Below, one piece after another: positions 3,736 to 37,745 of a stretch of DNA of 38,933 nucleotides. Under the pieces are notes generated by a model, which did no database searches, was not told the DNA's origin, and saw only the letters and a program-made list of their open reading frames with translations. Position 1 is the stretch's first letter, and each line of letters starts with the position of its first letter. Source of the DNA: a virus; IMG/VR virus record IMGVR_UViG_3300042560_001956, positions 1 through 38,933 of that record. One strand, 5' to 3'. The position numbers and the translations under genes were made by a program.

Positions 3736-4782
3736 ATGTCATCCCTGACGCGTGAGACCAAGTCACGCACCGGCTGGCGATTGCGAGCGTACACGGCCAC
3801 CGGTCGGAAATCGATTTGGTTGGGGGACATTCCCGAGGCCGACGCAGTTGCGGTCCAGCGTCATGTCGACGAGATCCTCGCCGCACAGACCGCCGATCTC
3901 CCGCTGCCGCGTCAGACCGTTCGGTGGCTGGACCAAATCTGTCCAGCACTGCGCCGCAAGCTCTCCGCGATCCTCGGCGCGACCCACACCGTTGGGACTG
4001 CGATCGATGCCTACGTGCATGAGACGCGTGAGCGGTTGGCGATGGCCACCTGGAACGATCGGCAACGGTCGCTCGAACTGCTGCGTGATGCACTCGATCA
4101 GCGGCCCATTGACCGCGTATCGACCGAGGATGTCACCGAATGCCACGAGTCCCTCACCGTGGGCGAATCGACCCGTGGCAAGATCGCCGCCGGATGGCGC
4201 GCGTTTTTTCATTGGTGCCAGGATCGCAAGATCATCACCGACAATCCCGCTCGGGAGCTATCGACGAAGATCAACGTCCGGGAAAAGCATTTTGTCCCGG
4301 TCGGTGTTGCGGCCAAGCTGATCGAGATCGCCACGCCCTCGATGGCGGTCGCGATCGCCATGAGCCGATTCGGTGGGATCCGCGTCCCGTCCGAGCTGCG
4401 TTCACTGACCTGGGACGCGATCGACTGGGACCGCAAACGGATCACCATCTGTGATCACAAACGAAACACCACGCGCATCATCCCGCTGTTCCCCGAGATC
4501 GCCGCGGCCCTCGCGCGTCATCCGCGAGATGTCCCGCTGTGCGGTGATCTGATCGACGGCAGCGATTCCGGCATGGCCTGTCGGCTGCTTAACCTGATGG
4601 CGATCGCGGGCGTCACGCCATGGCGTGCGCCGTGGCACAGCATGCGAGCCACCCGCGAGACGGAATTGATTGAGCGGTATGGACTCGCCACCGCGTCGCA
4701 ATGGATCGGCAACAGCGCCGCCGTCGCGATGCGCAGCTATGCCATGGTCACGGACGACCATTGGCACCGCGCCACGACGTAG
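3736..4782 (+). CDS. Tyrosine recombinase (integrase) embedded in the structural operon
   Basis: This 348-residue site-specific recombinase has an N-terminal arm-binding region, a SAM-like core-binding domain (about 80-170) and a catalytic domain. Visible catalytic residues are Arg216 in GGIRVPSELRSLTW, the basic DHKRNTTR beta-hairpin, His301 and Arg304 in HSMRATRE, and the presumed nucleophile Tyr335 in RSYAMVTDDHW. The usual GH histidine is replaced by Asn in WIGNSAAV, a variant I associate with planctomycete integrases. The start is three bases after the portal stop, so it is co-transcribed with structural genes. Its stop codon lies inside a REP-like palindrome. A second, different recombinase lies at 36597. 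It could be an intact cargo gene or a recombinase for an inserted element. The frame is intact. Confidence 0.88.
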   Translation: MSSLTRETKSRTGWRLRAYTATGRKSIWLGDIPEADAVAVQRHVDEILAAQTADLPLPRQTVRWLDQICPALRRKLSAILGATHTVGTAIDAYVHETRERLAMATWNDRQRSLELLRDALDQRPIDRVSTEDVTECHESLTVGESTRGKIAAGWRAFFHWCQDRKIITDNPARELSTKINVREKHFVPVGVAAKLIEIATPSMAVAIAMSRFGGIRVPSELRSLTWDAIDWDRKRITICDHKRNTTRIIPLFPEIAAALARHPRDVPLCGDLIDGSDSGMACRLLNLMAIAGVTPWRAPWHSMRATRETELIERYGLATASQWIGNSAAVAMRSYAMVTDDHWHRATT

Positions 4783-16540: not shown

Positions 16541-16647
16541 CTGCGTCCAGGACGCAGTTGACCGCAGCCTACGCGGCCGCGGCTACACGTAGCTGCGTCC
16601 GCGTAGGACGCAGACTGAACATCCGCAGCCTACGCGGCTGCGGCTAC
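16537..16647 (+). repeat. Two tandem REP-like elements (copies D1 and D2)
   Basis: D1 covers 16537-16586 and D2 covers 16589-16647. Each begins GTAGCTGCGTCC, forms a hairpin with GGACGCAG, then a second hairpin between CCGCAGCC and GGC.GCGG, and ends GCTAC. D1 provides the stop codon of the preceding gene. The elements fill most of the gap to the tape measure start at 16663. Confidence 0.8.
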
Positions 16648-16662
16648 ACAAGGAACCGTAGC

Positions 16663-21321: not shown

Positions 21322-22455
21322 ATGCATTTGAGTGTGACCGCAGTTGAGTATCTGCAAAAATTAGGGGTCAACCCTGAGTTTGGCACTTTAACATCGCAGG
21401 CCAACCACAACACCGGCCGAGCTGCGTGGCGGGCATTGCACAGCGAACCACACGGCACGCCAGAATGGTTCGCCGAGTGGAAGAAACTGATCCCGACCGG
21501 TTGCGGATGCCGGCAGGGGGCCAACGATCTGCTCGCGTTATGCCCGCCGCGCTACGATTCGCCCGAGGACTGGTTTGCCTGGACGATCGAATACCACAAC
21601 CTGGTCAACGCAAAACTCAGCAAGCCCGCCATGCCGCTGGGCCAGGCGAGAGCCTTGTGGCGCGGTCAGCCGTGGATCCAACCGGCCATCGATCACGTTG
21701 TCGCGATCACGTCCCTGTCGCCGCTGCCGCACCATCGCGAGGTGCAACAGCAATGTCTGCAATCGTGGCGGGACTTTGGTCTGCGTCGCGTTGTATCGGG
21801 CAATACGGCCGACGAGATCGACTTGCTCAAAGATCAGTACGACGTCGAATTCGCGGTTGTGCAGCCGTCGGTTGCATTTTCTCGACCGACCCCGCGCGTG
21901 TTCGATCTGCTGCAGCTCGGCAGCGGCCCGATGCTGCTGCTCAACAGCGACATTGAGATCCTCGGCCCCCAGTCGCGATTGCTTGAGCTGGTCGACGATC
22001 GCCAAACCGCGATCGGCATCCGCCATAATTGGAATGACACTGAGGATCCCGTAGCTGCGTCCGCCCAGGACGCAGACGAACCATCCGCAGCCTGGCGGCA
22101 GCGGCTACCCGCCAATTCGCGACGCATCGACGCCACGCTCGAACGCTGGGGGTACGACGTCTTTTTGCTCTACCCGGAGGATTTGACCACGCTGCCCAAT
22201 TTGGATCTTGGGATCGGGCAACCCATGTGGGATTGGTGGCTACCGGTGCATCTCGATTTGGCGGGTGTCTCGCTCGAATACCTCGCCGACCCGTTTTTCT
22301 ACCATCGCAAACATTCGCTGCATTGGGACAACAGCGGGCTGGCGATCGGCCGGTCGATCCTGGCCGACGCGTACGGCATGCCTGCGGATTACCCGTCGTG
22401 GGAAAAATGGCGATTCGCCCGCCCGCACAGCGACCGCGCATCGTTTGGCGTCTAA
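21322..22455 (+). CDS. Erv1/Alr-like domain fused to a glycosyltransferase-like domain
   Basis: In this 377-residue protein, residues about 20-115 match the Erv1/Alr sulfhydryl oxidase layout: GRAAWRALH, a W..W helix, GCGC (a CxC in place of the usual CxxC), L...PPRYDSPEDWFAWTIEYHNLVNAKLSKP. The HN.VN..L.KP signature is the FAD-site motif of the family. Residues about 125-377 look like a GT-A nucleotide-sugar fold: VVAITSLSPLPHHREVQQQC, MLLLNSDIEIL with a possible DxD-like NSD, DWWLPVHLDL and FFYHRKHSLHW. A REP-like element at 22051-22108 is translated in frame between the two halves of the second domain. It follows the 27-cysteine protein. Catalysis is unproven. Confidence 0.55.
   Translation: MHLSVTAVEYLQKLGVNPEFGTLTSQANHNTGRAAWRALHSEPHGTPEWFAEWKKLIPTGCGCRQGANDLLALCPPRYDSPEDWFAWTIEYHNLVNAKLSKPAMPLGQARALWRGQPWIQPAIDHVVAITSLSPLPHHREVQQQCLQSWRDFGLRRVVSGNTADEIDLLKDQYDVEFAVVQPSVAFSRPTPRVFDLLQLGSGPMLLLNSDIEILGPQSRLLELVDDRQTAIGIRHNWNDTEDPVAASAQDADEPSAAWRQRLPANSRRIDATLERWGYDVFLLYPEDLTTLPNLDLGIGQPMWDWWLPVHLDLAGVSLEYLADPFFYHRKHSLHWDNSGLAIGRSILADAYGMPADYPSWEKWRFARPHSDRASFGV
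22051..22108 (+). repeat. REP-like element inside a coding sequence (copy E)
   Basis: This 58-bp element closely matches D2 (16589-16647): GTAGCTGCGTCCGCCCAGGA opens it and GCGGCTAC closes it. It is translated as VAASAQDADEPSAAWRQRLP, an Ala/Asp-rich segment between NWNDTEDP and the ANSRRIDATL helix. The protein frame continues on both sides. Confidence 0.75.
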
Positions 22456-23132: not shown

Positions 23133-23386
23133 CCGGAGACATCCCCACGCATCTCAAACCCCACTCGTCGAAATCGTTCGGTCGCTACGAACGCCAACCC
23201 GCTGACCGGGCCCCTCGCTGCCCGCATTGCGACGCTCGCTATCGCGCGGCATCCACGCGGGAACAGATCACGTGGTATTACCCGACGTGCGATTGCGCAC
23301 CGCGATCGGGAATCGTGCGGCTACGCCCGCAACGCGATGCGAGTACGAGTACGAGTACGAGTAGGAGTACGAGTGAGAGACCGTGA
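23129..23386 (+). CDS. Small zinc-ribbon protein with Ser-Thr repeat tail
   Basis: This 85-residue protein overlaps the previous gene by ATGA and the terminase by GTGA. It contains CPHCDARYRAAST and CDC as a likely zinc-binding pair, preceded by a basic, proline-containing N-terminus. Its C-terminus STSTSTSRSTS is encoded by a six-copy GAGTAC array. Its place before terL is that of a small terminase, but no helix-turn-helix is evident. The function may be packaging-associated. Confidence 0.5.
   Translation: MTGDIPTHLKPHSSKSFGRYERQPADRAPRCPHCDARYRAASTREQITWYYPTCDCAPRSGIVRLRPQRDASTSTSTSRSTSERP
23341..23376 (+). repeat. GAGTAC hexanucleotide tandem repeat
   Basis: There are six units: GAGTAC x3, GAGTAG, GAGTAC, GAGTGA. 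It encodes alternating Ser and Thr. Slippage by whole units keeps the frame but changes the length of the tail. Confidence 0.8.
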
Positions 23387-25575
23387 CCGACGCCTACACC
23401 AAACACCGCAACCGCCAAGCCGCCAAATCCGCCGAGCAATCGACCGAAGCTCGCGACATCGGCCCGATCCCAAAAATCAAAAACGCCAAACGCCGCGCGG
23501 CCTGTGAACGGGACCTCAAGAAATTCTTGCTCACCTACTTTCCCGAGTCCTTCCCGCTACCATTCAGCGACGACCATCTGCGGATCCTGAAGGACATTGA
23601 ACAGCGAGCCATCGAGGGCGGGCTCAAGGCGATCGCGATGAGCCGCGGATCGGGCAAGACGACGATCTTGCTGCGGGCGCTGTGCTGGGTCCTGGCCTAC
23701 GCTCACCGTCGATTCGGCGTCCTGGTCGAAGCCGACGAAGGAGCCGCCGAGGAATCGCTCGACACGATCAAGATCGAGTGGGAAACCAACCCGCTGCTCC
23801 TCGAGGATTTTCCCGAGATCGCTTACCCCATTCGATGCCTCGAGGGGATCACCCAACGGGGCAACGCCCAGACGACCGAGGGCGCGCGGACACTGATCGG
23901 ATGGAAGCGGAAGGAACTCATCTTCCCCACGATCGCCGGGAGCAAATCTTCCGGTGCGACGATCCGCGTCGCGGGGATCCTGGGCCGGATCCGAGGCATG
24001 ATGAAAACACTCGCCGACGGCAAAACCCTCCGTCCCGATTTCGTGATCGTCAACGATCCGCAGACGGACACCTCGGCACTGTCCGATCCCGAATGCGCCA
24101 AACGGGAGAAGGTGGTCGGCGGCGCGATCCTGGGCCTCGCCGGACCGGGAAAACGGATCTCGGGGTTTGCCGCCGTTACCGTGATCCGCGAGGGGGACAT
24201 GGCGGACCGGCTGCTCAACCGCCAGCTGATGCCCAAGTGGCATGGCGAACGCTGCAAACTGGTCTATGAGTGGCCGACCAACACGGACCTCTGGAAAGAT
24301 TATTTCGAGGTCCGCGCCGACGAGATCGCGGAGGGGATCGATGACCATCCCAAGGCCACCAAATTCTACCGTGCGCATCGCGCGGCCATGGACGAGGGTT
24401 CAATCGTCGGATGGCCCGCTCGCAAAGCCCCGCATGAGCTATCGGCCTTGCAGCATGCAATGGACCTGCGCTACGATCACCCCGACACGTTCGACGCCGA
24501 GTACCAAAACAGCCCCCGCCCGCTCATCGCGCCGGTCGAGGGGATCGTCTGCCTGACGTCCGACCAATACTGCTTGCGAACGCTCCCCACGCACAAGCGT
24601 GGTGAATGCCCGGACTGGGTCGACCATGTGACCCTCGGCGTCGACGTCCAGGGCTCGTCGCTGTGGTGGGTGGTCGCTGGCATCGGGTCCGATTTCCGGG
24701 GCCTGGTCCTCGACTACGGCGTATGGCCGGATCAGGGGATCGATTACCTCACCCTCTCCGAAGTCGAACGGACGATGATGCGAGTCACCGGGATGCGATC
24801 GCCGACGGCCGCGCTGATGGAGGGGCTCAATCGATTGCGCGCCGAACGGCTGGCGGTCGAGTACACTCGCGACGATGGATCCATGATGCGGGTCTCGCAG
24901 ATGGTGGTCGACTCGGGCTATCAAGCGGAAACCGTCTACCAATTCAGCCAATCGCATCCTAACGTGATCCCATCGCACGGTCGCGGTGTGACCGCACGGC
25001 AGCGGCCGTGGTCGCTCGACCGGCCCAAGCGAGGTGAGCGGATCGGTTACGGTTGGCGGATGCCCCCGACCCGCGGGACCCGTGCGCCGCGGTATGTGCT
25101 GATCGACACCAACACATGGAAGACCAAGCTCAACGAGTCCTGGACGATCGAGGGCTCGGACTCGCCGGGCGCGTGGTTCCTATTCAAAGCCGCCGCATTG
25201 CGCCACCGCATGATCGCCGATCATCTGTCGAGCGAGTACCCGACGAAGACAGCGGGCCAGGGCCGCGAGCTGTACGAATGGGCGGTGAGGCCCAACCGAG
25301 ACAATCACCTTTTGGACGCGCTGCTCTTGGCAGCGGTCGGTGGATCGCTCCAGGGGGTGCGGATCCCGGGCGAGTCCGATCGCCGGATCGCTCGCCGTCA
25401 TGTTGCCATGCGACGCGACGATCGCACCGTCAGCACCGACCCCGACGCCCACCTGGTCGCTGCCGTCCCCAGCAGCTCGCCGGTCAGCAGCTCGGCCAGC
25501 AGCTCGACGGCGGTGGCTGAACCTCGCCCGCGCAAAATGAGTCTTTCTGAGATGCGAGCCGCCAAGCGCGGGTAG
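23383..25575 (+). CDS. terL: Terminase large subunit
   Basis: This 730-residue DNA packaging motor starts with GTG 23383, overlapping the previous stop. The ATPase domain has Walker A SRGSGKTT at residues 87-94 and a Walker B-like hydrophobic DFVIVNDPQ at 219-227. The nuclease domain shows the acidic triad in GVDVQGSSLWWVV, VVDSGYQAETV and NHLLDALLLAAV. A Ser-rich hydrophilic tail ends KMSLSEMRAAKRG. Length exceeds many terL proteins (500-650). It is the last gene of the rightward operon instead of the first. Confidence 0.9.
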   Translation: MTDAYTKHRNRQAAKSAEQSTEARDIGPIPKIKNAKRRAACERDLKKFLLTYFPESFPLPFSDDHLRILKDIEQRAIEGGLKAIAMSRGSGKTTILLRALCWVLAYAHRRFGVLVEADEGAAEESLDTIKIEWETNPLLLEDFPEIAYPIRCLEGITQRGNAQTTEGARTLIGWKRKELIFPTIAGSKSSGATIRVAGILGRIRGMMKTLADGKTLRPDFVIVNDPQTDTSALSDPECAKREKVVGGAILGLAGPGKRISGFAAVTVIREGDMADRLLNRQLMPKWHGERCKLVYEWPTNTDLWKDYFEVRADEIAEGIDDHPKATKFYRAHRAAMDEGSIVGWPARKAPHELSALQHAMDLRYDHPDTFDAEYQNSPRPLIAPVEGIVCLTSDQYCLRTLPTHKRGECPDWVDHVTLGVDVQGSSLWWVVAGIGSDFRGLVLDYGVWPDQGIDYLTLSEVERTMMRVTGMRSPTAALMEGLNRLRAERLAVEYTRDDGSMMRVSQMVVDSGYQAETVYQFSQSHPNVIPSHGRGVTARQRPWSLDRPKRGERIGYGWRMPPTRGTRAPRYVLIDTNTWKTKLNESWTIEGSDSPGAWFLFKAAALRHRMIADHLSSEYPTKTAGQGRELYEWAVRPNRDNHLLDALLLAAVGGSLQGVRIPGESDRRIARRHVAMRRDDRTVSTDPDAHLVAAVPSSSPVSSSASSSTAVAEPRPRKMSLSEMRAAKRG

Positions 25576-26255: not shown

Positions 26256-26311
26256 GACATTATGCGCGGCTCACCCGTGTTCCTTGTGACATTATCCATG
26301 GCTCACCCGTG
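26256..26311 (-). repeat. Direct repeat at the left edge of the cassette array (degenerate attC-like, S1)
   Basis: GACATTAT....GGCTCACCCG occurs twice, starting at 26256 and 26288, with a period of 32 bp (20 of 24 bases identical). The right copy leads into GTTATGC at 26323-26329. It looks like two attC right halves side by side without left halves. This is possibly the scar of a cassette loss. Confidence 0.4.
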
Positions 26312-26323
26312 GTGAATTGATCG

Positions 26324-26584
26324 TTATGCGGATAGTTGCCTGCGAACCGAATCAGCTCTTTCCGCTCCATGAACTATCCGAATGGTTTCTATCGCGCCAT
26401 CAAACCTTTCTGGGAATAGCTCTACATCACGAAGTCTGTCCAAAGCTTTTTCGCACGTAACGGATGTTTCGCACGCAACTTCCCACGCTTCTTGCTTCGT
26501 CATATCAAAATGCGTGAAATCATCTACCGTGGTACTGAATCGAGCAAACTTGCCGTTTGGCTGAATCACATACATACAAGCCAT
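26324..26584 (-). CDS. Cassette ORF 1, hypothetical
   Basis: This 86-residue product starts at ATG 26584, with GAGGGTGG just upstream. The sequence begins MACMYVIQPNGKFARFSTTV and has an alpha/beta pattern (WEVACETSVTCEKALDRLRD) ending RQLSA. The stop TAA lies inside GCATAAC, the box at the end of the gene, exactly as in integron cassettes. It is flanked by boxes GTTATGC (26323) and GCATAAC (26595). No named family is recognised, as is usual for cassette genes. Confidence 0.6.
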   Translation of the reverse strand: MACMYVIQPNGKFARFSTTVDDFTHFDMTKQEAWEVACETSVTCEKALDRLRDVELFPERFDGAIETIRIVHGAERADSVRRQLSA

Positions 26585-26594
26585 CACCACCCTC

Positions 26595-26683
26595 GCATAA
26601 CAAAAAAATGCACCGGAGTTGCCGTCCGGCTGCTTCCTCATCGATACTCACCGGCGGCAACCCGGTGATTTTGTGCGTTATGC
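26595..26683. repeat. attC-like site S2 (89 bp)
   Basis: Boxes are GCATAAC (26595-26601) and GTTATGC (26677-26683). The stem is CACCGGAGTTGCCGTCCGG (26611-26629) pairing with CCGGCGGCAACCCGGTG (26651-26667). Seventeen pairs form, leaving A26617 and T26625 unpaired in the left arm, seven bases apart. Two or three extrahelical bases in one arm at this spacing are a defining attC feature. Confidence 0.7.
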
Positions 26684-26953
26684 GGACGGTTCCGCACTGA
26701 ATCGCGACCACTTTCCGCACTGTGCCGTAAATGACTCGATTACCATTTCAGGCGTTAAATCAAGCGAATCGACCTCGCTGTGCCAAATCTGCAACTCGTT
26801 CACCTCGATAGCCGCAGCACACTGACCAAGGGAGATACTCACCTGCGGAATCTCCCTCGCGATGCCGCTCTCGTCACACACTGCCTCGATGTGGTCTTGC
26901 AGTTGTTTCGCACATTCGATAATCGTCTGGTAGTCCTCAAGAAACCCATACAT
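26678..26953 (-). CDS. Cassette ORF 2, hypothetical
   Basis: This 91-residue product starts at ATG 26953, with GAGGTTTGATT upstream (an upstream TTG start is less likely). The sequence MYGFLEDYQTIIECAKQLQD is helical and acidic; the mid part ISLGQCAAAIEVNELQIWHS precedes the end FSAEPSA. Its stop TAA is inside the GCATAAC complement of the S2 right box. It is flanked by S2 and S3. Function is unknown. Confidence 0.6.
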   Translation of the reverse strand: MYGFLEDYQTIIECAKQLQDHIEAVCDESGIAREIPQVSISLGQCAAAIEVNELQIWHSEVDSLDLTPEMVIESFTAQCGKWSRFSAEPSA

Positions 26954-26971
26954 AATCAAACCTCAATCGCC

Positions 26972-27054
26972 GCATAACAAACCCATGCACCCAAGCGGCT
27001 TTAGGTGCCGAAAAATTAAATCACCCCGCCGCTGGGTGATGGGTGGCGTTCGTC
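26972..27054. repeat. attC-like site S3 with mismatched boxes (83 bp)
   Basis: The left box is GCATAAC (26972-26978) and the right box is GTTCGTC (27048-27054). The stem is ACCCATGCACCCAAGCGGC (26981-26999) with GCCGCTGGGTGATGGGT (27028-27044). Seventeen pairs form, with an extra G (26987) and an extra A (26993 or 26994) in the left arm. The boxes do not complement each other, but each matches the box at the other end of its own adjacent gene, as expected for a junction made by recombination. Confidence 0.72.
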
Positions 27055-27058
27055 GTAT

Positions 27059-27331
27059 TCAGATTCCACGCTCAGAGGGCAGGAATGTTGACCAATCAAC
27101 ACGCTCCGCTTCGTCGCGTACACACACAGACCAAACCTCCCATACTTCGTTCAATGGGCAATCGGTTCGTGCGGTTGCGATCCTCCGAATCTTTAACTTC
27201 TTGTTTTCGCCGCCCATGCCGTCGCACCCGATGATTTCCCATACACCGTGACGATCCATGCCGTCGCTTCGATAGCCTTTGACGCGAAACGCAAATGGCT
27301 TCATCACCGGAATAGGTAACTTATCGCTCAT
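27059..27331 (-). CDS. Cassette ORF 3, hypothetical
   Basis: This 90-residue product starts at ATG 27331, with GGAG seven bases upstream. The sequence MSDKLPIPVMKPFAFRVKGY continues with WEIIGCDGMGGENKKLKIRR and a WEVWSVCVRDEAERVDW end; it resembles a beta-rich small domain. It is flanked by GTTCGTC (S3 right) and GACGAAC (S4 left), which are mutually complementary. No family is recognised. Confidence 0.6.
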   Translation of the reverse strand: MSDKLPIPVMKPFAFRVKGYRSDGMDRHGVWEIIGCDGMGGENKKLKIRRIATARTDCPLNEVWEVWSVCVRDEAERVDWSTFLPSERGI

Positions 27332-27348
27332 AATGGACTCCAAGAAAC

Positions 27349-27439
27349 GACGAACAAACCAATGAACCCAAGCGGCACACAACGTCTTTTCCCAGTGGCA
27401 GCCGCTTCTTGTGCCGCTGGGTTATTGGTAGCGTTCGTC
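27349..27439. repeat. attC-like site S4 (91 bp)
   Basis: Boxes are GACGAAC (27349-27355) and GTTCGTC (27433-27439). The left arm, 27358-27378, begins ACCAATGAACCC and pairs with the 27411-27429 arm GTGCCGCTGGGTTATTGGT. Nineteen pairs form, with an extra G (27364) and an extra A (27370 or 27371), the same positions as in S3 and S6. Relative to S3/S6 the stem carries compensatory changes on both arms. Confidence 0.72.
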
Positions 27440-27442
27440 AGA

Positions 27443-27748
27443 CTAAAACTCAGTCGTTGTGTTTTCATTGTGCTGTTTCACAAGATCGTGGACGCATGGC
27501 ATGGACCTCATTTCCGCAACAGCCAACTCCGCACCCTTTCGCATCGCAAGCCTATACTGCTCGGTCAGAAACTCGGCAAACTCCCTACTATAAACGTCCT
27601 CTGGCACCTGCGGTAAATCACCGTCTGACCGCAATAGTCGTGACCGTGTAATGGAATCGTGAATCTCATCCACTCCGTACCACTTGCACACAAAATCCCA
27701 CGGACGACGAACAATGGATTGCACCGAAGCCTCATTCGTCTCGCTCAT
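27443..27748 (-). CDS. Cassette ORF 4, hypothetical
   Basis: This 101-residue product starts at ATG 27748, with AGAGG eight bases upstream. Its first about 13 residues (MSETNEASVQSIV) and leader are nearly identical to those of ORF 5, while the rest (WDFVCKWYGVDEIHDSITRS, then a helical AEFLTEQYRLAMRKGAELAV) is unrelated. It ends TTTEF before the S4 right box. No family is recognised. The short common N-terminus may be a shared targeting or leader segment. Confidence 0.6.
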   Translation of the reverse strand: MSETNEASVQSIVRRPWDFVCKWYGVDEIHDSITRSRLLRSDGDLPQVPEDVYSREFAEFLTEQYRLAMRKGAELAVAEMRSMPCVHDLVKQHNENTTTEF

Positions 27749-27792
27749 TCTCGTTACCTCTTTCCTTTCGGCTCGGTGAATCCGAGCGTTCA
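27706..27792 (-). repeat. 87-bp direct repeat, copy 1
   Basis: This segment, containing the start of ORF 4, its ribosome binding site, the hairpin GCTCGGTGAATCCGAGC (27771-27787) and the start of box GTTCATC (27788-27794), recurs at 28047-28133 with only a few differences. It marks a truncated attC-like end without a left arm. Confidence 0.8.
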
Positions 27793-28089
27793 TCGTATGG
27801 AAATGCGGCGATCCATCTGCTCTATGATTCGCTGCATCTCTTCCAGTGGTGTATCCTCTGGCCAAAACAAATGCTCAGGTCCGTTTTCGCCCTTAATCCA
27901 TGCGTTCCACGCACCTACAACGTAGTTTTGCTTGTCCCACGGATAACGCCCATCGCTCACGCTTTGCGTCTCAAACCGCAGCCCAACTACTGGTTGGGCT
28001 AGGTCGCCACGATAGACCCAGTGTTGATCGGTTACGCGATCCCAACGATGAACAACGGATTGCACCGAAGCCTCATTCGTCTCGCTCAT
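27790..28089 (-). CDS. Cassette ORF 5, hypothetical
   Basis: This 99-residue product starts at ATG 28089 with the same leader and N-terminus (MSETNEASVQSVV) as ORF 4. The remaining sequence, including HWVYRGDLAQPVVGLRFETQ, YVVGAWNAWIKGENGPEHLF and PLEEMQRIIEQMDRR, differs completely. Its TGA stop lies in GATGAAC, the complement of the box GTTCATC. The WP and EH-containing C-terminal half may form a small alpha/beta domain. No function is assigned. Confidence 0.6.
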   Translation of the reverse strand: MSETNEASVQSVVHRWDRVTDQHWVYRGDLAQPVVGLRFETQSVSDGRYPWDKQNYVVGAWNAWIKGENGPEHLFWPEDTPLEEMQRIIEQMDRRISIR

Positions 28090-28133
28090 TCTCGTTACCT
28101 CTTTCCTTTCAGCTCGGTGAATCCGAGCGTTAT
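28047..28133 (-). repeat. 87-bp direct repeat, copy 2
   Basis: This is copy 2 of the repeat at 27706-27792, offset by 341 bp. It contains the start of ORF 5 and the hairpin GCTCGGTGAATCCGAGC (28112-28128). The box here is GTTATGC (28129-28135) instead of GTTCATC, matching the other end of ORF 6's cassette (GCATAAC at 28375). Confidence 0.8.
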
Positions 28134-28138
28134 GCATA

Positions 28139-28357
28139 TCAATTGTGGTTCGCGCGGTTCACCCAGTCGATAGCTTGCTGCACTTCCTTTTCCTGCTGCT
28201 CATATCCTTCAAGAATCTCGCGACGAGATTTTCCGCTTTGACCGTGTGGCAATTCCATTTGATCCGCCGAGTATCCACGGAAGTTCATTCGCGCCCGTTC
28301 CGTATCGTCGCCCTTCATGCGTTCCAATGCGTATAACGCTCTCTGTTTTGGTGTCAT
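28139..28357 (-). CDS. Cassette ORF 6, helical hypothetical protein
   Basis: This 72-residue product starts at ATG 28357, with TTAAGGAG nine bases upstream. The sequence MTPKQRALYALERMKGDDTE, then SKSRREILEGYEQQEKEVQQ in part and AIDWVNRANHN is highly charged and helical. It is flanked by GTTATGC (28129) and GCATAAC (28375), which are complementary. Small charged helical proteins of this type may be nucleic-acid or protein-binding regulators, but nothing specific is recognised. Confidence 0.6.
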   Translation of the reverse strand: MTPKQRALYALERMKGDDTERARMNFRGYSADQMELPHGQSGKSRREILEGYEQQEKEVQQAIDWVNRANHN

Positions 28358-28374
28358 ATCAATCGCTCCTTAAC

Positions 28375-28463
28375 GCATAACAAACCCATGCACCCAAGCG
28401 GCGATCGGGTGCTCTATCGTTGAAACCATCACCCCGCCGCTGGGTGATGGGTTAGGGTTATGC
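28375..28463. repeat. attC-like site S6 (89 bp)
   Basis: Boxes are GCATAAC (28375-28381) and GTTATGC (28457-28463). The stem is ACCCATGCACCCAAGCGGC (28384-28402) with GCCGCTGGGTGATGGGT (28436-28452). Extra G (28390) and A (28396 or 28397) are in the left arm. The arms are identical to S3, while the loop differs. The right box contains the TAA stop of ORF 7 (minus strand). Confidence 0.72.
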
Positions 28464-28646
28464 CGACTCTGGATACCGCGTCACCCCATCCGGCCAATCG
28501 ATGTTGGCAAAACGCAATGGAACCGCTTGGCTAATTGAATCTCCTCGCTTGACGACATCGGTGAGCACCATGTCGTCTTTTTTGATAATGCAGTCACCAT
28601 CTGGCCACAGTGCTTTGACATGCGCCCATGCTTCCTTTACGTCCAT
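28458..28646 (-). CDS. Cassette ORF 7, hypothetical
   Basis: This 62-residue product starts at ATG 28646 (MDVKEAWAHVKALWPDGDCI). Its stop TAA lies inside GCATAAC at the S6 right box. The C-terminus VPLRFANIDWPDGVTRYPESA suggests a small alpha/beta domain like short phage proteins with KIDWP..V...P endings. It is the last ORF of the array on this side; no left box is seen upstream of it. Function is unknown. Confidence 0.55.
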   Translation of the reverse strand: MDVKEAWAHVKALWPDGDCIIKKDDMVLTDVVKRGDSISQAVPLRFANIDWPDGVTRYPESA

Positions 28647-28671: not shown

Positions 28672-29097
28672 TTATCCTCGGCACTGCCTCAGCATCCACT
28701 CGATCGCCTGCCGCATCACCGGCCAATGGTCGGGCTCGATCTCGATCGAGGATTGTTCCACCTGGCAATGCAGTTGCTTGAGCGTGACATACTCGCCTGC
28801 GGCGCAATCTTCGATCGTGATCCGTGTCACGCCAGGCTCGAAAATTTCGGCCCCCTTCGGTGCCACCACAATGCTGGTGACTCGCACCTCAAGATCGTCG
28901 TCGCCAACCGGGAAATCATCTGCGACCTGGTGGTCGCAGCTACGGTGAACATCTGCGACCTGGTGGTCGCAGCTACGGGGGGCGGGATCGGTGGCGATCG
29001 GCTGGTCGGTGCCGTCCATGCCGACGGTATAGATGCCCTCGGTGTACACATGCGGCCGGCGGTCTGGGACGTGGTCGTAGTTCATTCTGTCGCTCAT
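28672..29097 (-). CDS. Hypothetical protein with REP-encoded internal repeat
   Basis: The start ATG 29097 overlaps the upstream stop (ATGA). The 141-residue product begins MSDRMNYDHVPDRRPHVYTE and contains two 11-residue repeats (RSCDHQVADVH and RSCDHQVADDF) encoded by tandem REP-like hairpins at 28921-28976. The C-terminal half is a regular beta/alpha domain (VRVTSIVVAPKGAEIFEPG, then IEPDHWPVMRQAIEWMLRQ). The insertion is tolerated in frame. Function is unknown. Confidence 0.6.
   Translation of the reverse strand: MSDRMNYDHVPDRRPHVYTEGIYTVGMDGTDQPIATDPAPRSCDHQVADVHRSCDHQVADDFPVGDDDLEVRVTSIVVAPKGAEIFEPGVTRITIEDCAAGEYVTLKQLHCQVEQSSIEIEPDHWPVMRQAIEWMLRQCRG
28921..28976 (-). repeat. Two REP-like hairpins translated in frame (copy G)
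   Basis: TGCGACC...GGTCGCAGCTAC occurs at 28921-28943 and 28954-28976 with a 33-bp period (11 codons). In the minus orientation each is GTAGCTGCGACC...GGTCGCA, the same plan as the GTAGCTGCGTCC elements. Confidence 0.75.
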
Positions 29098-30095
29098 GCT
29101 GTTCGTACCTTCCAATCTTGAGATATGCGGTAATTCTTGAAATCAAACTGGCCGTCCGTGGCTAACGAAACGAACGCGAAACCGTGATTGGATTTCGCGA
29201 ATCGGTTGTACTCTGGGTTGGGTGCGCAGAGGCAACCGACCGACCACACGGCGACCTCGCGGCCGAACATGTCGGGCTCGACGTGCGTGCTCGTCCGGTG
29301 GCTGTGTCCCACCGCGATTGTGTGCAGCGTCTTGAGAAACGCACCGCGAGCCGGATTGACGGGCGCGGCGATCCCCTTCTGCAGCTCGTGCCCGTGGAGA
29401 ATCGGTAACTTGCCGATCAGAACCGGACGCTGGTCGGTGACCAGCTCGATCCCCATCGATTGCAATTGCAACAGCTCATGGATGCGGCACGCCTGGACGT
29501 TGTACAGCTCGGGGGCCCTCGCCCAAATGAACGCGTCCCACCGCTCTTCGTGGTTGCCCAGCTTGAACACAATCCGCGCCTTGGGAAAGTGTGCTCGCAG
29601 ATGCTGCAACCCCTCAACGCAGAACCGCAGCTCGTCGGCAAACGACCGGGCGCCGGGATCCTTTTCGTATCGGCTGATCCGGTAGAAATCGCAGTAGTCG
29701 CCGTTGATCAACAAACCATCGATCGCGTTGTCCTGCAGTTGCTTGACCGCGGCCCGGATTGCGCGGTCGCTGTGGTAGGGGACGTGCAGGTCGCTGATGA
29801 TGCCAACGCGTTTGCAGCCGTCCATGACAAACGGTTCAAACGGTTCCGCCAGCGAGGGTGGCATCGGCGGAACGGCCCCCGCGCGGCCGAGCTTGCGCGG
29901 TTGTTCGGCGCGGGCTCGTTTGGATTTGCCAGTCGCCCCGCGAACGTCGCGGACCATCCATCGCGCGTTGTCGATGGTGGCAAAATGCAGCGGGTGATCT
30001 CGCCTCAGTCGACGGGCCAGCTGCAGATTGGGCGCGTCGGGAAATTGTCGGCACAATGCGACGGCCAGCTCGCGCGCTTTGGTTTTTTTCGTCAT
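29094..30095 (-). CDS. Calcineurin-like metallophosphoesterase with basic N-terminal region
   Basis: This 333-residue product starts at ATG 30095 with a strong GGAGG eight bases upstream; upstream frame residues are not credible. An N-terminal helical, basic region (about 1-90) is followed by the metallophosphoesterase motifs: ISDLHVPYH (D.H), GDYCDFYR (GD), LGNHEERWD (GNHE), LHGHE and VGHSHR (GH.H). These bind two metal ions and hydrolyse phosphoesters or nucleic acids. In phages such proteins are usually linked to DNA processing. The gene overlaps the next one downstream. Confidence 0.85.
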   Translation of the reverse strand: MTKKTKARELAVALCRQFPDAPNLQLARRLRRDHPLHFATIDNARWMVRDVRGATGKSKRARAEQPRKLGRAGAVPPMPPSLAEPFEPFVMDGCKRVGIISDLHVPYHSDRAIRAAVKQLQDNAIDGLLINGDYCDFYRISRYEKDPGARSFADELRFCVEGLQHLRAHFPKARIVFKLGNHEERWDAFIWARAPELYNVQACRIHELLQLQSMGIELVTDQRPVLIGKLPILHGHELQKGIAAPVNPARGAFLKTLHTIAVGHSHRTSTHVEPDMFGREVAVWSVGCLCAPNPEYNRFAKSNHGFAFVSLATDGQFDFKNYRISQDWKVRTA

Positions 30096-30123
30096 TCCAA
30101 AATTCCTCCGTGGTTGCTTGCGG

Positions 30124-30387
30124 TCATTCCTTGGTGGTCTCGTCGTCGGTCTGCGATGCCGGCGGCGATGGATCGGTTTTCGGTGGGGGCTTGGTCGCTG
30201 CATGTTTGCGAGCCGACTCGAGGAACGCCGGATTGGTTGCCAGCTCGACCCCTTGGATCGTTCGCGCCAATCGCTTGGCGTCGACGATCGCGAGTTTGCG
30301 CCGTGGCGTGCGCCGAGCGGGTGGTCGCTGGCGATTGCCGGCCCGGTCCTCCCTAAGCGGGGATGATTTGCGGGCTCGCTTGGCCAT
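30124..30387 (-). CDS. Small basic protein, hypothetical
   Basis: This 87-residue product has GGAGG upstream of ATG 30387. The N-terminus MAKRARKSSPLREDRAGNRQ is strongly basic, and the C-terminus is acidic with Pro/Lys linkers (PPPKTDPSPPASQTDDETT). The charge split suggests nucleic acid contact at the N-terminus. It overlaps the end of the replication gene by 35 bp. Unknown family. Confidence 0.55.
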   Translation of the reverse strand: MAKRARKSSPLREDRAGNRQRPPARRTPRRKLAIVDAKRLARTIQGVELATNPAFLESARKHAATKPPPKTDPSPPASQTDDETTKE

Positions 30388-31255
30388 TGCGTGGTCCTCC
30401 GTGATAGTGTGGATTGGGTGCCTGCGGTTCCGGGGGCGGGTCGGGAACCAAATGCTTGACTCGGTCCCAGTTGTGCCCCTGGGCCTCGCACATGCGGATC
30501 ATGGCGCGGCCGAGGTATCCCTTCGGTTTTTGGACGTTTCCTTCACGGATTCGCGCCAGGGCGTCCAACATCCCTGGGCGGTCGAATTCACACGCGACCC
30601 ATGCCATCCGCCAGATGGTGTCGCGATCGAGTCCTCGCAGCTTGCCGCGATGGCTCAGTGTGTGCATGCCGTTGGCGATCTCCCGAACCGACTCGAAGAA
30701 ATCAACTCCCGCCGACGCCCAACCGTCCGTACGACGAGATTTGTTTTGTTCGGTTTTGTCCGGTCCTGTACTGTCCGGTCCGGTCGTGTCCGGTCGTGTG
30801 CTCGGGGGATCGTCGGGGGATTCCCCCGACGCGTCGGGGCCTGGAATTTTTGGTTGCGTCTGTTGCGTTTGTTGCGTCTGTTCGATCTGGGCGAGGTGCT
30901 GCTCGCGGCTGATGGTCTCGAGCCATCCGACGTCGGGCCGGCTGGCCCATTCGATCAATCGCTCAAAGACGTCGACCGGCATGGCGGTCACGCGTGCGAT
31001 GTGGCGGGTCGTCAGGGGATTTCCCCGATGGTCCCCCAGCGTCCCCCGGACATGGCACCCGGCCGCAAACGCGCACAGGGCGCACCACGCACCGTACATG
31101 GCGGGGAACTCGTCCCCGAACTCGTCGGCCATCTGGTTGTACCCGCGACCCGCAAACGAGACCGGCATGGCGATCCATGTCAGCGTCTTGAGTTTGCGCG
31201 ATTCCGCACGCTCAAACGTCTCGGTCCATTTGTAGATTCGGTACACGGTGGCCAT
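30353..31255 (-). CDS. Replisome organiser-like DNA replication protein
   Basis: This 300-residue product starts at ATG 31255. The N-terminal part (YRIYKWTETFERAESRKLKT, a DnaD-style winged-helix region with TTRHIARVTAMPVDVFERLI and a closing PDVGWLE) fits phage replisome organisers that load helicase at the origin. A low-complexity Thr/Gln/Pro linker (residues about 125-165) precedes a C-terminal domain ending KPKGYLGRAMIRMCEAQGHN. The central linker is encoded by imperfect repeats. The location beside a metallophosphoesterase and ParB-like genes fits a replication module. Confidence 0.55.
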   Translation of the reverse strand: MATVYRIYKWTETFERAESRKLKTLTWIAMPVSFAGRGYNQMADEFGDEFPAMYGAWCALCAFAAGCHVRGTLGDHRGNPLTTRHIARVTAMPVDVFERLIEWASRPDVGWLETISREQHLAQIEQTQQTQQTQPKIPGPDASGESPDDPPSTRPDTTGPDSTGPDKTEQNKSRRTDGWASAGVDFFESVREIANGMHTLSHRGKLRGLDRDTIWRMAWVACEFDRPGMLDALARIREGNVQKPKGYLGRAMIRMCEAQGHNWDRVKHLVPDPPPEPQAPNPHYHGGPRNGQASPQIIPA

Positions 31256-31268
31256 CGTGGCTGTCCCC

Positions 31269-31409
31269 TTAACGCATTGCGTCCCACGCCCCAGCCGCCA
31301 TGATCGCCGCCGCGGCGACGGTACAGGCCGCCAGAAACCACGCGTACCATTGATCTCGCGAGATCGGGCTGTCGTCCGGTGCATCCTCTGGTTTAATCGC
31401 CATGCTCAT
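31269..31409 (-). CDS. Small single-TM protein (46 residues)
   Basis: ATG 31409 has AAGGA nine bases upstream. The product MSMAIKPEDAPDDSPISRDQ continues with the hydrophobic WYAWFLAACTVAAAAIMAAG and ends WDAMR. It is a short acidic N-terminus with one C-terminal membrane helix, lying just upstream of the replication gene. Its role is unknown. Size and codon pattern support a real gene. Confidence 0.5.
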   Translation of the reverse strand: MSMAIKPEDAPDDSPISRDQWYAWFLAACTVAAAAIMAAGAWDAMR

Positions 31410-31440
31410 GATTGTGGTCCTTTCCGGTTACAAATGGGGG

Positions 31441-31713
31441 TCAATTGCGTTTGGGCCGCTCAACGCGCCGTGCGTCGTGCGTGGTCTCGATCCCGTGCTC
31501 GATGCCGGCGAGGGCACCGATTCGGATCGCTTCATGGATCGACGCAAACAGGGCGCGGATCAATTGGTCGACGTCGTTCGATCGGGACACGTTTTCAAGG
31601 TATTGAACCAATCGGACCGCTTCGCCGTCGGCAAACATCAGCTCCGCGATCGCGACCGCGTCGGCTTGGTTGCGTTGGTCGATCTGCTGGGTCAACAATT
31701 CAATCACGGTCAT
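31441..31713 (-). CDS. Helical hypothetical protein
   Basis: This 90-residue product starts at ATG 31713, overlapping the previous stop (TAATG). The sequence MTVIELLTQQIDQRNQADAV continues as helical Ala/Glu-rich segments (AIAELMFADGEAVRLVQYLE) with a basic C-terminus RRVERPKRN. It is translationally coupled to the DUF551-like gene. No defined domain is visible. Confidence 0.55.
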   Translation of the reverse strand: MTVIELLTQQIDQRNQADAVAIAELMFADGEAVRLVQYLENVSRSNDVDQLIRALFASIHEAIRIGALAGIEHGIETTHDARRVERPKRN

Positions 31714-31904
31714 TATTCGGGCCCCTTGGGCAGCTCGGCCCAGTAATGGACGTCGGCCAGCATCGCCCCATTGGGCTCCCGCCAGTAATCGCCGTCGCGA
31801 TACCCCAACCAAACCGCCTCGCTCATGTTGGGGCCGTAGACCAGGACCATGATGTCGTCGTCCGGCGGATCGCACGCCGACATCCATACCAGTTGTTCCA
31901 CCAT
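31713..31904 (-). CDS. DUF551-like small protein
   Basis: This 63-residue product is preceded by GGAGG. The sequence contains DDDIMVLVYGPNMSEAVWLG, then YWREPNGAMLADVHYWAELP and a PKGPE end. The VLVY...W....V.HW..LP.PPE pattern is typical of DUF551 proteins that are common in phage early regions. The function of that family is unknown. Confidence 0.5.
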   Translation of the reverse strand: MVEQLVWMSACDPPDDDIMVLVYGPNMSEAVWLGYRDGDYWREPNGAMLADVHYWAELPKGPE

Positions 31905-31925
31905 CTTGATTTCCTCCGTGAGTAT

Positions 31926-32261
31926 TTACTGGGGTTTGGTTTCTCGGACGCGTACGCAGGGTTTGACTTCGCCGTTGAAACTGGTCTCGCTGCGGTACAG
32001 CGTCAGCTTTTTTCCGACCCAGTTGTCAACCTCGCTGCCGTACATCCTGGCAATCGATCGCGAGTTGGTGTGGTTGAGAATCAAACCGCGTTGGAACTCC
32101 GCAAAGAAAATCACGTAGCGCATTTCGCCCCCGATCAATTCCTCCTCGACGCGGTCAAACGTCACCACCAACTCGTCCCCCATTCGGTCTCCGATGTCGA
32201 GCGCCTCAATGTGAGGGCTCGGGCACAGGTCCGTAACACGCAATCCCGTCTTGTTCGTCAT
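31926..32261 (-). CDS. Conserved phage early protein, OB-like
   Basis: This 111-residue product starts at ATG 32261. It contains LRVTDLCPSPHIEALDIGDR, RYVIFFAEFQRGLILNHTNS, IARMYGSEVDNWVGKKLTLY and VKPCVRVRETKPQ. Phage replication and recombination regions often encode a protein with the order F....LVLN.TN...IA..YG.D...W.G..I.LY......G....IRVR, with unknown but probably DNA-metabolism-related function. That pattern is seen here in full. Confidence 0.6.
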   Translation of the reverse strand: MTNKTGLRVTDLCPSPHIEALDIGDRMGDELVVTFDRVEEELIGGEMRYVIFFAEFQRGLILNHTNSRSIARMYGSEVDNWVGKKLTLYRSETSFNGEVKPCVRVRETKPQ

Positions 32262-32289
32262 CTGCTTATTTCCTTCGTATAAAAAACCA

Positions 32290-33036
32290 CTAACGATTGA
32301 GATAGTTCTCATCGATCCAAACACGGACGGCGGCACGTTGCACGTCGTCCCATTTCTTCCACAGCTTCTGCAGCGTCTTGACCGCCGAAACCCGCAGCTC
32401 GTCGTCGGGGTCGACGTAGGGGCTGGGCTCGGTGATGTGTTCCCGCATCGCCTCGCGTCCCTTGCGGACCAACTCGGTTTGCGTCGCGTGGTCGTTTTCC
32501 TCTGCCGCAAACCGAGCCGCAAACGTGACCGGGATCTCGCCTCGCTCGACCGCGGCGACCAGCTCGGGCGAGCCGTGCTCGATCACCTGTTTAGCTCGGC
32601 TGACCGTGGCCCGTCCGACCTGCAACCGCTGCGCGGCATCCTCGAGCGAAATCGGATCCTCCGATCCGTTTTCCTTCGAGGGCCGGCCTGGTCCGAGGTT
32701 GGCGATCTTGGCCGCGACCATCGCCCGCTGTTCGATGCTCAGTTGCCGTCGGTGCAAGTTTTGCGACACGACGTAGTCGACGGGATCGACCCCCGCGGCC
32801 AAGTCTCGCACATGGCACAGGATGCCCAACTCGCAACACGCCCGCCATCGATGCCGGCCATCGAGAACCTGATCGTGCTGGACCGTGATCGGGTTCAGCT
32901 GGCCGCGTCGTGCGATGTCGGCCTTGAGTGCGTGATAGTCGTCGTCGCTCATCGGCGGAAACAACTCCGCCAACGGGTGCAACGTCAACTCGGTGGCGAC
33001 CACGGTGGTTATGGTGTGTGTCATCTTGTGTTCCAT
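32290..33036 (-). CDS. ParB/Spo0J-like nuclease-domain protein
   Basis: This 248-residue product starts at ATG 33036 or 33024. Residues about 15-100 form the ParB N-domain: LFPPMSDDDYHALKADIARR, GQLNPITVQ, the DGRHRWRAC box, and VVSQNLHRRQLS. A GRPSKENGSEDPISLEDAAQ region and a helix-turn-helix LQVGRATVSRAKQVIEHG follow. Phage ParB-like proteins act in partition, CTP-dependent DNA binding or nicking. No ParA-like ATPase is encoded in the window, so partition is not supported. Confidence 0.65.
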   Translation of the reverse strand: MEHKMTHTITTVVATELTLHPLAELFPPMSDDDYHALKADIARRGQLNPITVQHDQVLDGRHRWRACCELGILCHVRDLAAGVDPVDYVVSQNLHRRQLSIEQRAMVAAKIANLGPGRPSKENGSEDPISLEDAAQRLQVGRATVSRAKQVIEHGSPELVAAVERGEIPVTFAARFAAEENDHATQTELVRKGREAMREHITEPSPYVDPDDELRVSAVKTLQKLWKKWDDVQRAAVRVWIDENYLNR

Positions 33037-36402: not shown

Positions 36403-36597
36403 ATGGATGATTCGGACCTGACGCCGCCCATGCGGCGGATCATGTGGTCGCTGGCCGAAGTGGCGCAGCTGATGGGTGTCAGCAAACGCACCATTGAGGG
36501 TCTCATCAACGGCGGCGAGCTGCGGGCCAAACGCGTCGGACGCAAATTGATGGTAAGCCAGCGGGAACTGGATCGATTCCAGAGCACCTACCACTGA
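36403..36597 (+). CDS. xis: Excisionase-family HTH protein
   Basis: ATG 36403 is preceded by GAGGG. The 64-residue product (SLAEVAQLMGVSKRTIEGLI, then NGGELRAKRVGRKLMVSQRE, LDRF) is a textbook MerR/excisionase-type winged helix: a first helix, a turn, a recognition helix and a K/R wing. Such proteins bend DNA to direct excision by the adjacent integrase. The gene's stop overlaps the integrase start (TGATG), so the two are translationally coupled. Confidence 0.75.
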   Translation: MDDSDLTPPMRRIMWSLAEVAQLMGVSKRTIEGLINGGELRAKRVGRKLMVSQRELDRFQSTYH

Positions 36598-37745
36598 TGA
36601 GCACCATCTGGCGACACAAACGTGGCGGATGGTATGTGGCGGTCACGCTGCCTGCTCGCAACCGCGCGAAAATCTACCTCGGCCAAATCAACAAGGCCAC
36701 GGCGCAATCGATCGCCAGCAAACTGGACTCGATCATGGCTACCAACCGCGTGGGCGAACCACCAACGGCCGACGCCGCGGCATGGTTGGCCACGTTGGCG
36801 ATGCACAAATCACCGTTGCTGGATCAATTGGCCAAACATGGGCTGTTGCAGCAATGGAACCGGCCCGGTGCGATCCCGACGGTACAAACGGCATGGGACG
36901 CGTACGTCGCGAAACGATCCGACTACAGCGAGGGAACACGGCGAGGATGGCGAACCGCTTGGGCCCATGTTGGCCCTCGATTTGGATCCCGCACGCTGGA
37001 CGAGATCACCGTAGCCGACGCCAAGGATTTCACGCGTGACCTGTGCGGTTGCGTGGCATCGACCCACGCCAGGCAGATCCTGAACAGGCTGAGGATGGTC
37101 TTTGCTGACGCCATCGACGCCGGCGTGATCACCTCGAGCCCATTCGCCGATTGCAAAATCTCCGCCAAGACCGACAAGACGCGTTACCAATACATCAGCG
37201 AGGAAACGGCGTTGCAGGTGCTCGACGCGTTTAATTCGCTCGATGGACGGGCCCTGTTTGCGTTGGCTCGTTGGTGCGGTCTGAGAATCCCGCATGAGCC
37301 GCTCGCGATCAAGTGGACCGACATCGATTGGTCCGCCGAACGTCTGACGATCGCCGCAAACACCAAAACGGGGCACAGGGTCGTCCCATTGTTCCCGGTA
37401 GCATTGCAACATTTGCGGGTGCTTCAAGAAACGGCACCAACTGGAGCCGTGTACGTGTTCAATCGCGGCCGTGCGTCCGCTGCGACCGAATGGCGTCGCT
37501 GGCTTGAGGACGCAATCCGCCACGCCAAGGTGCAGCCATGGGCACACCTGTGGCACAACCTGCGTCGTTCATGCCGAACCGATCTGGAGGATCGATTCCC
37601 CAGCCACGTTTGCGACGCGTGGATCGGCCACAGCGCCAAGGTCGCCAAGGATCATTACCTGCTAGTCACCGCCGAGCACTGGCAAGCCGCGCGCACGGCG
37701 CGCGAGCCTCGCGCACGGCGCGGCGCACGGCGCGCAAAGGGATGA
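36597..37745 (+). CDS. int: Phage integrase (tyrosine recombinase)
   Basis: This 382-residue site-specific recombinase has a core-binding domain (about 90-190) and a catalytic domain. Visible catalytic residues are Arg230 in CGLRIPHEPLAIKW, the basic ANTKTGHRVV hairpin, His320 and Arg323 in HNLRRS, the His of WIGHSAKV, and Tyr354 in DHYLLVTAEHW. The C-terminal tail after TAEHWQ is Arg/Ala-rich (ARTAREPRARRGARRAKG) and encoded by a 30-bp GC-rich sequence repeated downstream. It has an excisionase upstream and a hairpin, candidate attP region downstream. Confidence 0.9.
   Translation: MSTIWRHKRGGWYVAVTLPARNRAKIYLGQINKATAQSIASKLDSIMATNRVGEPPTADAAAWLATLAMHKSPLLDQLAKHGLLQQWNRPGAIPTVQTAWDAYVAKRSDYSEGTRRGWRTAWAHVGPRFGSRTLDEITVADAKDFTRDLCGCVASTHARQILNRLRMVFADAIDAGVITSSPFADCKISAKTDKTRYQYISEETALQVLDAFNSLDGRALFALARWCGLRIPHEPLAIKWTDIDWSAERLTIAANTKTGHRVVPLFPVALQHLRVLQETAPTGAVYVFNRGRASAATEWRRWLEDAIRHAKVQPWAHLWHNLRRSCRTDLEDRFPSHVCDAWIGHSAKVAKDHYLLVTAEHWQAARTAREPRARRGARRAKG
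37709..37738 (+). repeat. 30-bp direct repeat, copy 1 (in the integrase C-terminus)
   Basis: TCGCGCACGGCGCGGCGCAC continues to GCGCGCAAA. The identical 30 bases recur at 37873-37902, 164 bp away. They flank the hairpin at 37777-37808. This copy encodes part of the basic tail of the integrase. Confidence 0.85.

Follow-up and report, generated by a model that had tools for sequence, protein, structure and literature searches.

Integrons are usually pictured as bacterial tools that are occasionally carried by phages, and the origin of their gene cassettes is an open question. Arrays of the cassette recombination site attC have already been published from phages: in 10,705 phage genomes, Qi et al. 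2023 (PMC9892861) reported 17 clusters of attC sites lacking integron integrases (CALINs) together with 3 complete integrons, and the integrase IntI1 recombined five of the phage attC sites. The statement in a preliminary description of the DNA studied here, that no established example of such an arrangement was known, is therefore not supported. The DNA is a stretch of 38,933 b, the whole of the IMG/VR virus record IMGVR_UViG_3300042560_001956 (G000), which we refer to as the window. It is a CALIN inside a phage genome, as that description had it, with six attC sites, tailed-phage genes and no IntI in a record that may be partial. We consider it likely that this array is a phage-resident integron cassette platform without an integrase of its own in this record. 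Its ORFs (open reading frames) are inverted relative to attC, and its cassettes turn over between fixed edges in related phages.

The minus strand from 26324 to 28646 holds seven short ORFs, and six palindromes of 83-91 bp lie between them (26595-26683, 26972-27054, 27349-27439, 27706-27794, 28047-28135 and 28375-28463). The elements of the array are listed with the scores of the attC model described below and the length in nucleotides over which the two ends of a cassette match.

26256-26329, plus strand: candidate attI-like element, with two 24-nt repeats (26256-26279 and 26288-26311) followed by GTGAATTGATC-G|TTATGC.
26324-26677, minus strand: cassette 1, ORF1 at 26324-26590 (minus), attC at 26595-26683 (plus; 48.5 bits, E 6e-10), end match 8.
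26678-27048, minus strand: cassette 2, ORF2 at 26678-26959 (minus), attC at 26972-27054 (plus; E 2e-8), end match 9.
27049-27433, minus strand: cassette 3, ORF3 at 27059-27331 (minus), attC at 27349-27439 (plus; E 5e-9), end match 9.
27434-27788, minus strand: cassette 4, ORF4 at 27443-27748 (minus), attC at 27706-27794 (E 2e-4), end match 7.
27789-28129, minus strand: cassette 5, ORF5 at 27790-28089 (minus), attC at 28047-28135 (E 1e-4), end match 9.
28130-28457, minus strand: cassette 6, ORF6 at 28139-28357 (minus), attC at 28375-28463 (plus; 51.5 bits on the plus strand versus 15.7 on the minus), end match 7.
28458-28646, minus strand: ORF7, a fixed phage gene at the distal end of the array, with its stop within the TTATGC half of an insertion site.

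That the six palindromes are attC sites is established as far as sequence permits. A covariance model (R1) was made from 22 attC sites near IntI genes in Planctomycetota chromosomes. IntI genes were sampled in 294 Planctomycetota genomes, 50 were above the curated cut-off, and 20 IntI loci were fetched; the training set contained no site from the window or from G015, the metagenome-assembled genome (MAG) with the closest attC. R1 recovers all six window sites, at 51.5, 48.5, 44.8, 42.6, 27.4 and 26.3 bits (E 1e-10 to 2e-4), and its best match in the window outside them has E = 0.13, so the attC claim of the preliminary description stands under an independent model. AAC...GTT boxes are present at all six, and each has 2-3 extra bases in the plus-strand 5' arm. 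The structural details given earlier were mostly right. Palindromes of 83-91 bp do separate the seven ORFs, but there are six rather than four; two unpaired bases in one arm, about 6-7 nt apart, are seen at every site; the stops of ORFs 1, 2 and 7 are in GCATAAC and that of ORF5 is in GATGAAC. The complementary 7-base boxes ascribed to each hairpin match fully at three of the six sites and not at the other three.

The ends of the cassettes provide a second line of evidence. Arrays built from circular cassettes predict that the two ends of the same cassette match, and in all six cassettes the head, TTRRRY, complements the cassette's own R'' box at the opposite end over 7-9 nt. The tail of cassette 1 pairs over 8 nt with the head at the attI-like G|TT (26323). 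When arm complementarity and matching of cassette ends were combined in a chain search, the best chain in the window was the six sites from 26595 to 28463, with a score of 147 versus 59.9 for the best of 25 dinucleotide shuffles. Our first attC finder, which applied a threshold to arm complementarity alone, missed 27706 and 28047, and these were recovered once end matching was included. Folded as single-stranded DNA, four of the six sites fall far below their shuffles (z -3.6 to -6.1), and the two sites with long unstructured loops give z of -0.6 and -0.9.

The array occupies a fixed slot in a family of phages. Relatives of the large terminase subunit encoded to its left identify eight loci in IMG/VR. 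In one of these, L001, similarity to the window extends to 26329 (94% over 830 bp) and resumes at 28457, and the cassettes between these points are unrelated. Different arrays follow the same kind of left edge in L002, L005 and L007, and L006, judged by eye, keeps the left edge followed by an apparent single cassette and a decayed site. In all five loci the left edge is conserved up to G|TT and unrelated beyond it, and in most relatives the conserved element ends in GAATTGATN-G|TT. By its position, its repeats and its end matching, this element resembles attI, with a putative crossover between 26323 and 26324. Searching with a DNA pattern of the element gave 42 matches; those outside L002 and L007 have no attC match and were treated as chance. 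On the other side, the protein of ORF7 is 97% identical in L001, where the adjoining attC is not shared. Since it is kept beside a different array, ORF7 is a fixed phage gene and should not have been counted among the cassettes, as it originally was. The same cassettes recur across viral records as whole units with their edges at G|TT. As read from these sequence comparisons, the array is a resident, turning-over platform of a phage family rather than the single capture first proposed, with turnover in the same slot in L001, L002, L005 and L007. Sequences like tRNA 3' ends (GGTTCGAATCC...CCATT) occur in or beside the arrays of L005, L006, L033 and L034; ARAGORN found no tRNA in L005 or L006.

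Turnover in one slot could also come about without IntI, if similar attC cores underwent homologous recombination in co-infected cells. Phages recombine readily, attC cores recur at more than 90% identity (for example 27710-27790 versus L001), and there is one shared cassette with a different attC. However, the units have their edges at G|TT, and the ends of a cassette are complementary even where those of its neighbours are not, which exchange through the cores would scramble. We regard this explanation as unlikely. Somewhat less probable again is a one-off capture, in which illegitimate recombination put a copy of an ordinary chromosomal array into the phage, where it persists as a static CALIN. 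Capture has been proposed by Qi et al. (PMC9892861) for other phages. The lack of IntI in the record speaks for it, as does an attC in a host MAG that is 93% identical to 28375-28463. Against it, L001 has unrelated cassettes between the same two edges despite a flank that is 94% identical, and cassettes recur across viral records as whole units. In addition, chromosomal ORFs are mostly in the canonical orientation relative to attC (11 inverted to 62 canonical), so a random chromosomal segment would rarely be all-inverted.

The orientation of the window's ORFs was missed in the preliminary description: the canonical attC strand is opposite to the ORFs. All six sites score on the plus strand, and it is the minus strand that holds the ORFs. 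Chromosomal cassettes of G015, inspected by eye, have the extra bases in the 5' arm as read along the ORF; in the window these bases are in the plus-strand 5' arm, and the ORFs are on the opposite strand. The window ORFs are therefore inverted relative to attC, and a cassette reads along the plus strand as TTRRRY, reversed ORF, R'', attC core, G. Stops lie inside the boxes because TTA in the head is TAA on the opposite strand. The codon classifier described below scored the ORFs of cassettes 2 and 3 as inverted. The window ORFs do not have the canonical orientation, with attC at the 3' end of the ORF. Since inverted ORFs are found as a minority in the sampled chromosomal arrays, their orientation marks a variant and not a non-member.

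Cassettes that have moved fix the polarity independently of R1. In nine cassette pairs common to different viral records, compared segment by segment, the body is 69-100% identical, and the attC on the 5' side of the ORF is 95-100% identical in six of the nine. The sequence past the other edge is 39-64% identical and that past attC 8-43%. The attC upstream of the ORF therefore travels with it. Misassigned polarity would mean that the ORFs are canonical, that the phage sites have a reversed arm asymmetry, and that the recombinase cuts the other box. It is true that attC is near-palindromic and that end matching alone leaves polarity unfixed. However, the attC that moves with the ORF is at its 5' side and not its 3' side, the conserved edges on the attI side are at G|TT, and most of the viral loci that combine IntI with inverted ORFs have sites running away from the 5' end of IntI, as in normal integrons. 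This alternative is largely refuted, and we rejected it as very improbable.

The inverted form is distinct and apparently widespread. Scanning with three attC patterns led to about 30 further viral loci with such arrays. ORF orientation was assigned on cassettes with matching ends by a codon classifier with a cross-validated area under the curve of 0.96-0.98, which was added because many GC-rich cassettes could not be decided by the longest-ORF rule. Across 22 viral records, each identified through an attC pattern or the terminase, 57 cassettes are inverted, none is canonical, and 7 are undecided. On the chromosome of G015, 8 are inverted and 31 canonical, and at other Planctomycetota loci 3 and 31, which make up the chromosomal ratio given above. 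The longest-ORF rule agrees, with 47:0 inverted to canonical in viral arrays versus 11:56 in chromosomal ones (Fisher p about 1e-21, a value that overstates independence, since dereplication of the records was incomplete and window-like attC types were used to find the viral set). The median cassette length is 306 bp in phages versus 540-569 bp in chromosomes.

Some related phages encode the integrase. All searches for IntI in the window record were negative, and the window is not a complete integron; intI genes are found in the related contigs L004 and L149. PF13495 is a poor proxy for IntI, and TIGR02249 was used instead. In L004, the IntI gene adjoins a terminase 64% identical to that of the window, and the IntI of L149, a phage contig, is 80% identical to that of L004. 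Both keep the IntI-specific I2 region and the catalytic residues and are 34-40% identical to chromosomal IntI. Each is beside a TAATAAnTTG|TT site followed by a partial first cassette that is inverted by eye. When IMG/VR was scanned with a profile, IntI relatives were found to be encoded in 176 stretches, and the best 80 of the 176 were taken as the IntI-bearing viral set. Its 28 contigs with usable arrays have 38 inverted, 14 canonical and 14 undecided cassettes. Searches with PHROGs place tail proteins beside the IntI arrays of L199, L226 and L258, a portal and head protease in L205, an endolysin and tail protein in L200, and phage integrases in L192, L193, L212 and L229. In the contigs L188-L267, IntI is often near a contig end, suggesting that variable arrays cause breaks in assembly. 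Transcription terminators or regulatory palindromes among ordinary phage genes can hardly account for the hairpins and were rejected: the hairpins do sit between small genes and an Rfam search of the window returned nothing above threshold, but all six fit an attC model trained on chromosomal integrons, their boxes, extra bases and end matching are attC-specific, and R1 also finds arrays beside IntI in other viral contigs.

The array structure is well supported: by sequence, the array starts at the attI-like element beyond the terminase and ends at the fixed phage gene. The following scheme would account for it. Cassettes would enter and leave through crossover at G|TT by an IntI acting in trans, either that of a Planctomycetota host or that of a co-infecting phage; we infer recombination in trans because two related phage contigs encode IntI beside such a site. 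The inverted ORFs, reading toward attI, would be transcribed from the leftward phage genes, an attC with an internal Shine-Dalgarno-like motif and ATG would supply the translation start, and the cargo may be small phage accessory genes. Several observations weigh against a resident platform of inverted cassettes. There is no IntI in the window record, which may be incomplete. The attI-like element is a candidate, and the grounds for the call are its position, conservation and end matching. Among the canonical cassettes in IntI-bearing viral contigs, nine of the 14 come from L208, which is isolate-derived, and three from L210. Two cultured phages of Qi et al. depart from the pattern, TJE1 being canonical and H101 mixed, so inversion is not universal among phages. 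Among 20 sampled prophage regions of Planctomycetota that encode a homologous terminase, none was found to contain attC, so only a subset of such phages has the platform. Finally, one shared cassette pair (L002 4406 and L078 1650) has a body 98% identical but unrelated attC sites, an apparent attC exchange and an exception.

The direction of flanking genes judged by longest ORF is unreliable in GC-rich DNA, and only genes supported by hidden Markov models (HMMs) are cited in the list of the main features outside the array.

3736-4782, plus strand: tyrosine recombinase (phrog_1), not IntI, with no IntI family match.
23383-25575, plus strand: terminase large subunit (phrog_38 / phrog_15), left neighbour of the array and anchor for relatives.
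28672-33036, minus strand: phage genes that read leftward and lie upstream of the array, among them a metallophosphoesterase gene (29094-30491) and a ParB-like gene (32290-33036) (PHROGs).
36597-37745, plus strand: second tyrosine recombinase (phrog_1, E 9e-32), likely the phage integrase, not IntI, with no IntI family match.

The HMM-supported genes right of the array are on the minus strand. The array is therefore downstream of leftward phage genes, and it is probably read by read-through from them. Translation may begin within attC itself in some cassettes. ORF4 (start MSETNEASVQS) and ORF5 each have a Shine-Dalgarno-like motif and an ATG inside the loop of their own attC, and their sites are the two with unstructured loops. 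Of 64 viral cassettes, 25 have their best start with such a motif within their own attC, an approximate count made with a permissive motif. In nearly all of these the start is a loop ATG, and a leader such as that of ORF4 or MAKDTNGHLGSSDCSS is then encoded by the arm. Searches of Pfam, NCBIfam and PHROGs assigned almost no function to the cassette proteins; ORF1 matches phrog_14682, of unknown function, at E 7e-8.

The record is that of a tailed phage, with portal, head protease, tape measure, terminase and two tyrosine recombinases. Structural genes, terminase, integrase and prophage relatives together mark it as probably temperate. Terminase relatives are found in 51 of 392 Planctomycetota genomes. 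In nearly all of 20 regions around such terminases, the terminase is followed in order by portal and head-protein relatives, and these regions are therefore prophages of the same broad kind. The attC of the MAG G015 that is 93% identical to 28375-28463, together with these terminase relatives, upholds the Planctomycetota link drawn in the preliminary description, and we infer that the host is a planctomycete. The chromosomal array of G015 also contains a homologue (67% at the amino acid level) of a phage cassette gene, likewise inverted. This, with the similar attC, suggests cassette traffic in at least one direction. The G015 contigs L178, L182, L184 and L187 have a few short inverted cassettes among canonical ones, one of them with a phage-like attC. 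Elsewhere in the window, the recombinase at 3736-4782 has the portal gene on one side and the head-protease gene on the other, an unusual position for an integrase, and is also found in the relatives G004, G006, G007 and G008. There are dispersed short repeats, some with a GCGACC...GGTCGC palindrome, at 16588-16649, 22048-22111 and 28917-28978 of the window, at 6733-6796 of L001, and in other relatives.

The picture that emerges is of a phage lineage that keeps a dedicated insertion slot in which cassettes run the same way as the phage genes next to them. If this is true, viruses form an active part of the cassette pool, and viral arrays will be given the wrong orientation by annotation that takes its direction from the cassette ORFs. 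An attC that contains its own ribosome-binding site and start codon would let the recombination site also supply expression. A broader proposal is that viruses keep an integron class of their own, with small inverted cassettes fed by phage operons, attC sites serving as translation-start modules and sometimes an IntI lineage of their own, and that this viral pool leaks into host integrons. We put this forward tentatively, as possible but somewhat short of an even chance. If it is true, phages are a source of integron cassettes and not carriers alone.

Among known systems, the phages of Qi et al. (PMC9892861) are like the window in having attC arrays without IntI in tailed phages. Inverted cassettes or turnover in a fixed slot, as in the window family, were not found in the main text of PMC9892861, and we found no paper on inverted phage integrons in the open-access literature. 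Nor did the array match any annotated phage when these were searched for distant DNA similarity. The window is all inverted, unlike TJE1 and H101 from that set. In Pseudoalteromonas phage H101 (L272 26530-27988, record about 76529-77987), the annotated ORF at 76611-77153 is inverted relative to attC, and its cassette adjoins one with an unannotated canonical ORF. The sedentary chromosomal integrons of Planctomycetota share the attC architecture of the window, with up to 93% identity; their cassettes, unlike those of the phages, are longer and mostly canonical, in the median lengths and the ratio already given. In Treponema integrons, intI is reversed and transcribed toward attI (PMC3607928). 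The likeness to them is that intI and the cassette genes are transcribed in the same direction; unlike Treponema, the intI of L004 and L149 points away from attI as is ordinary, and it is the cassette ORFs that are inverted. The IntI-bearing IMG/VR contigs L199, L200, L205, L226 and L258 come close, with mostly inverted cassettes by tail, portal and lysis genes, but they encode IntI and the window does not. What is known, then, is that phages carry attC arrays; what is distinct here is the form, in that the cassettes are inverted, they turn over in a conserved slot, and attC sites can contain predicted translation starts.

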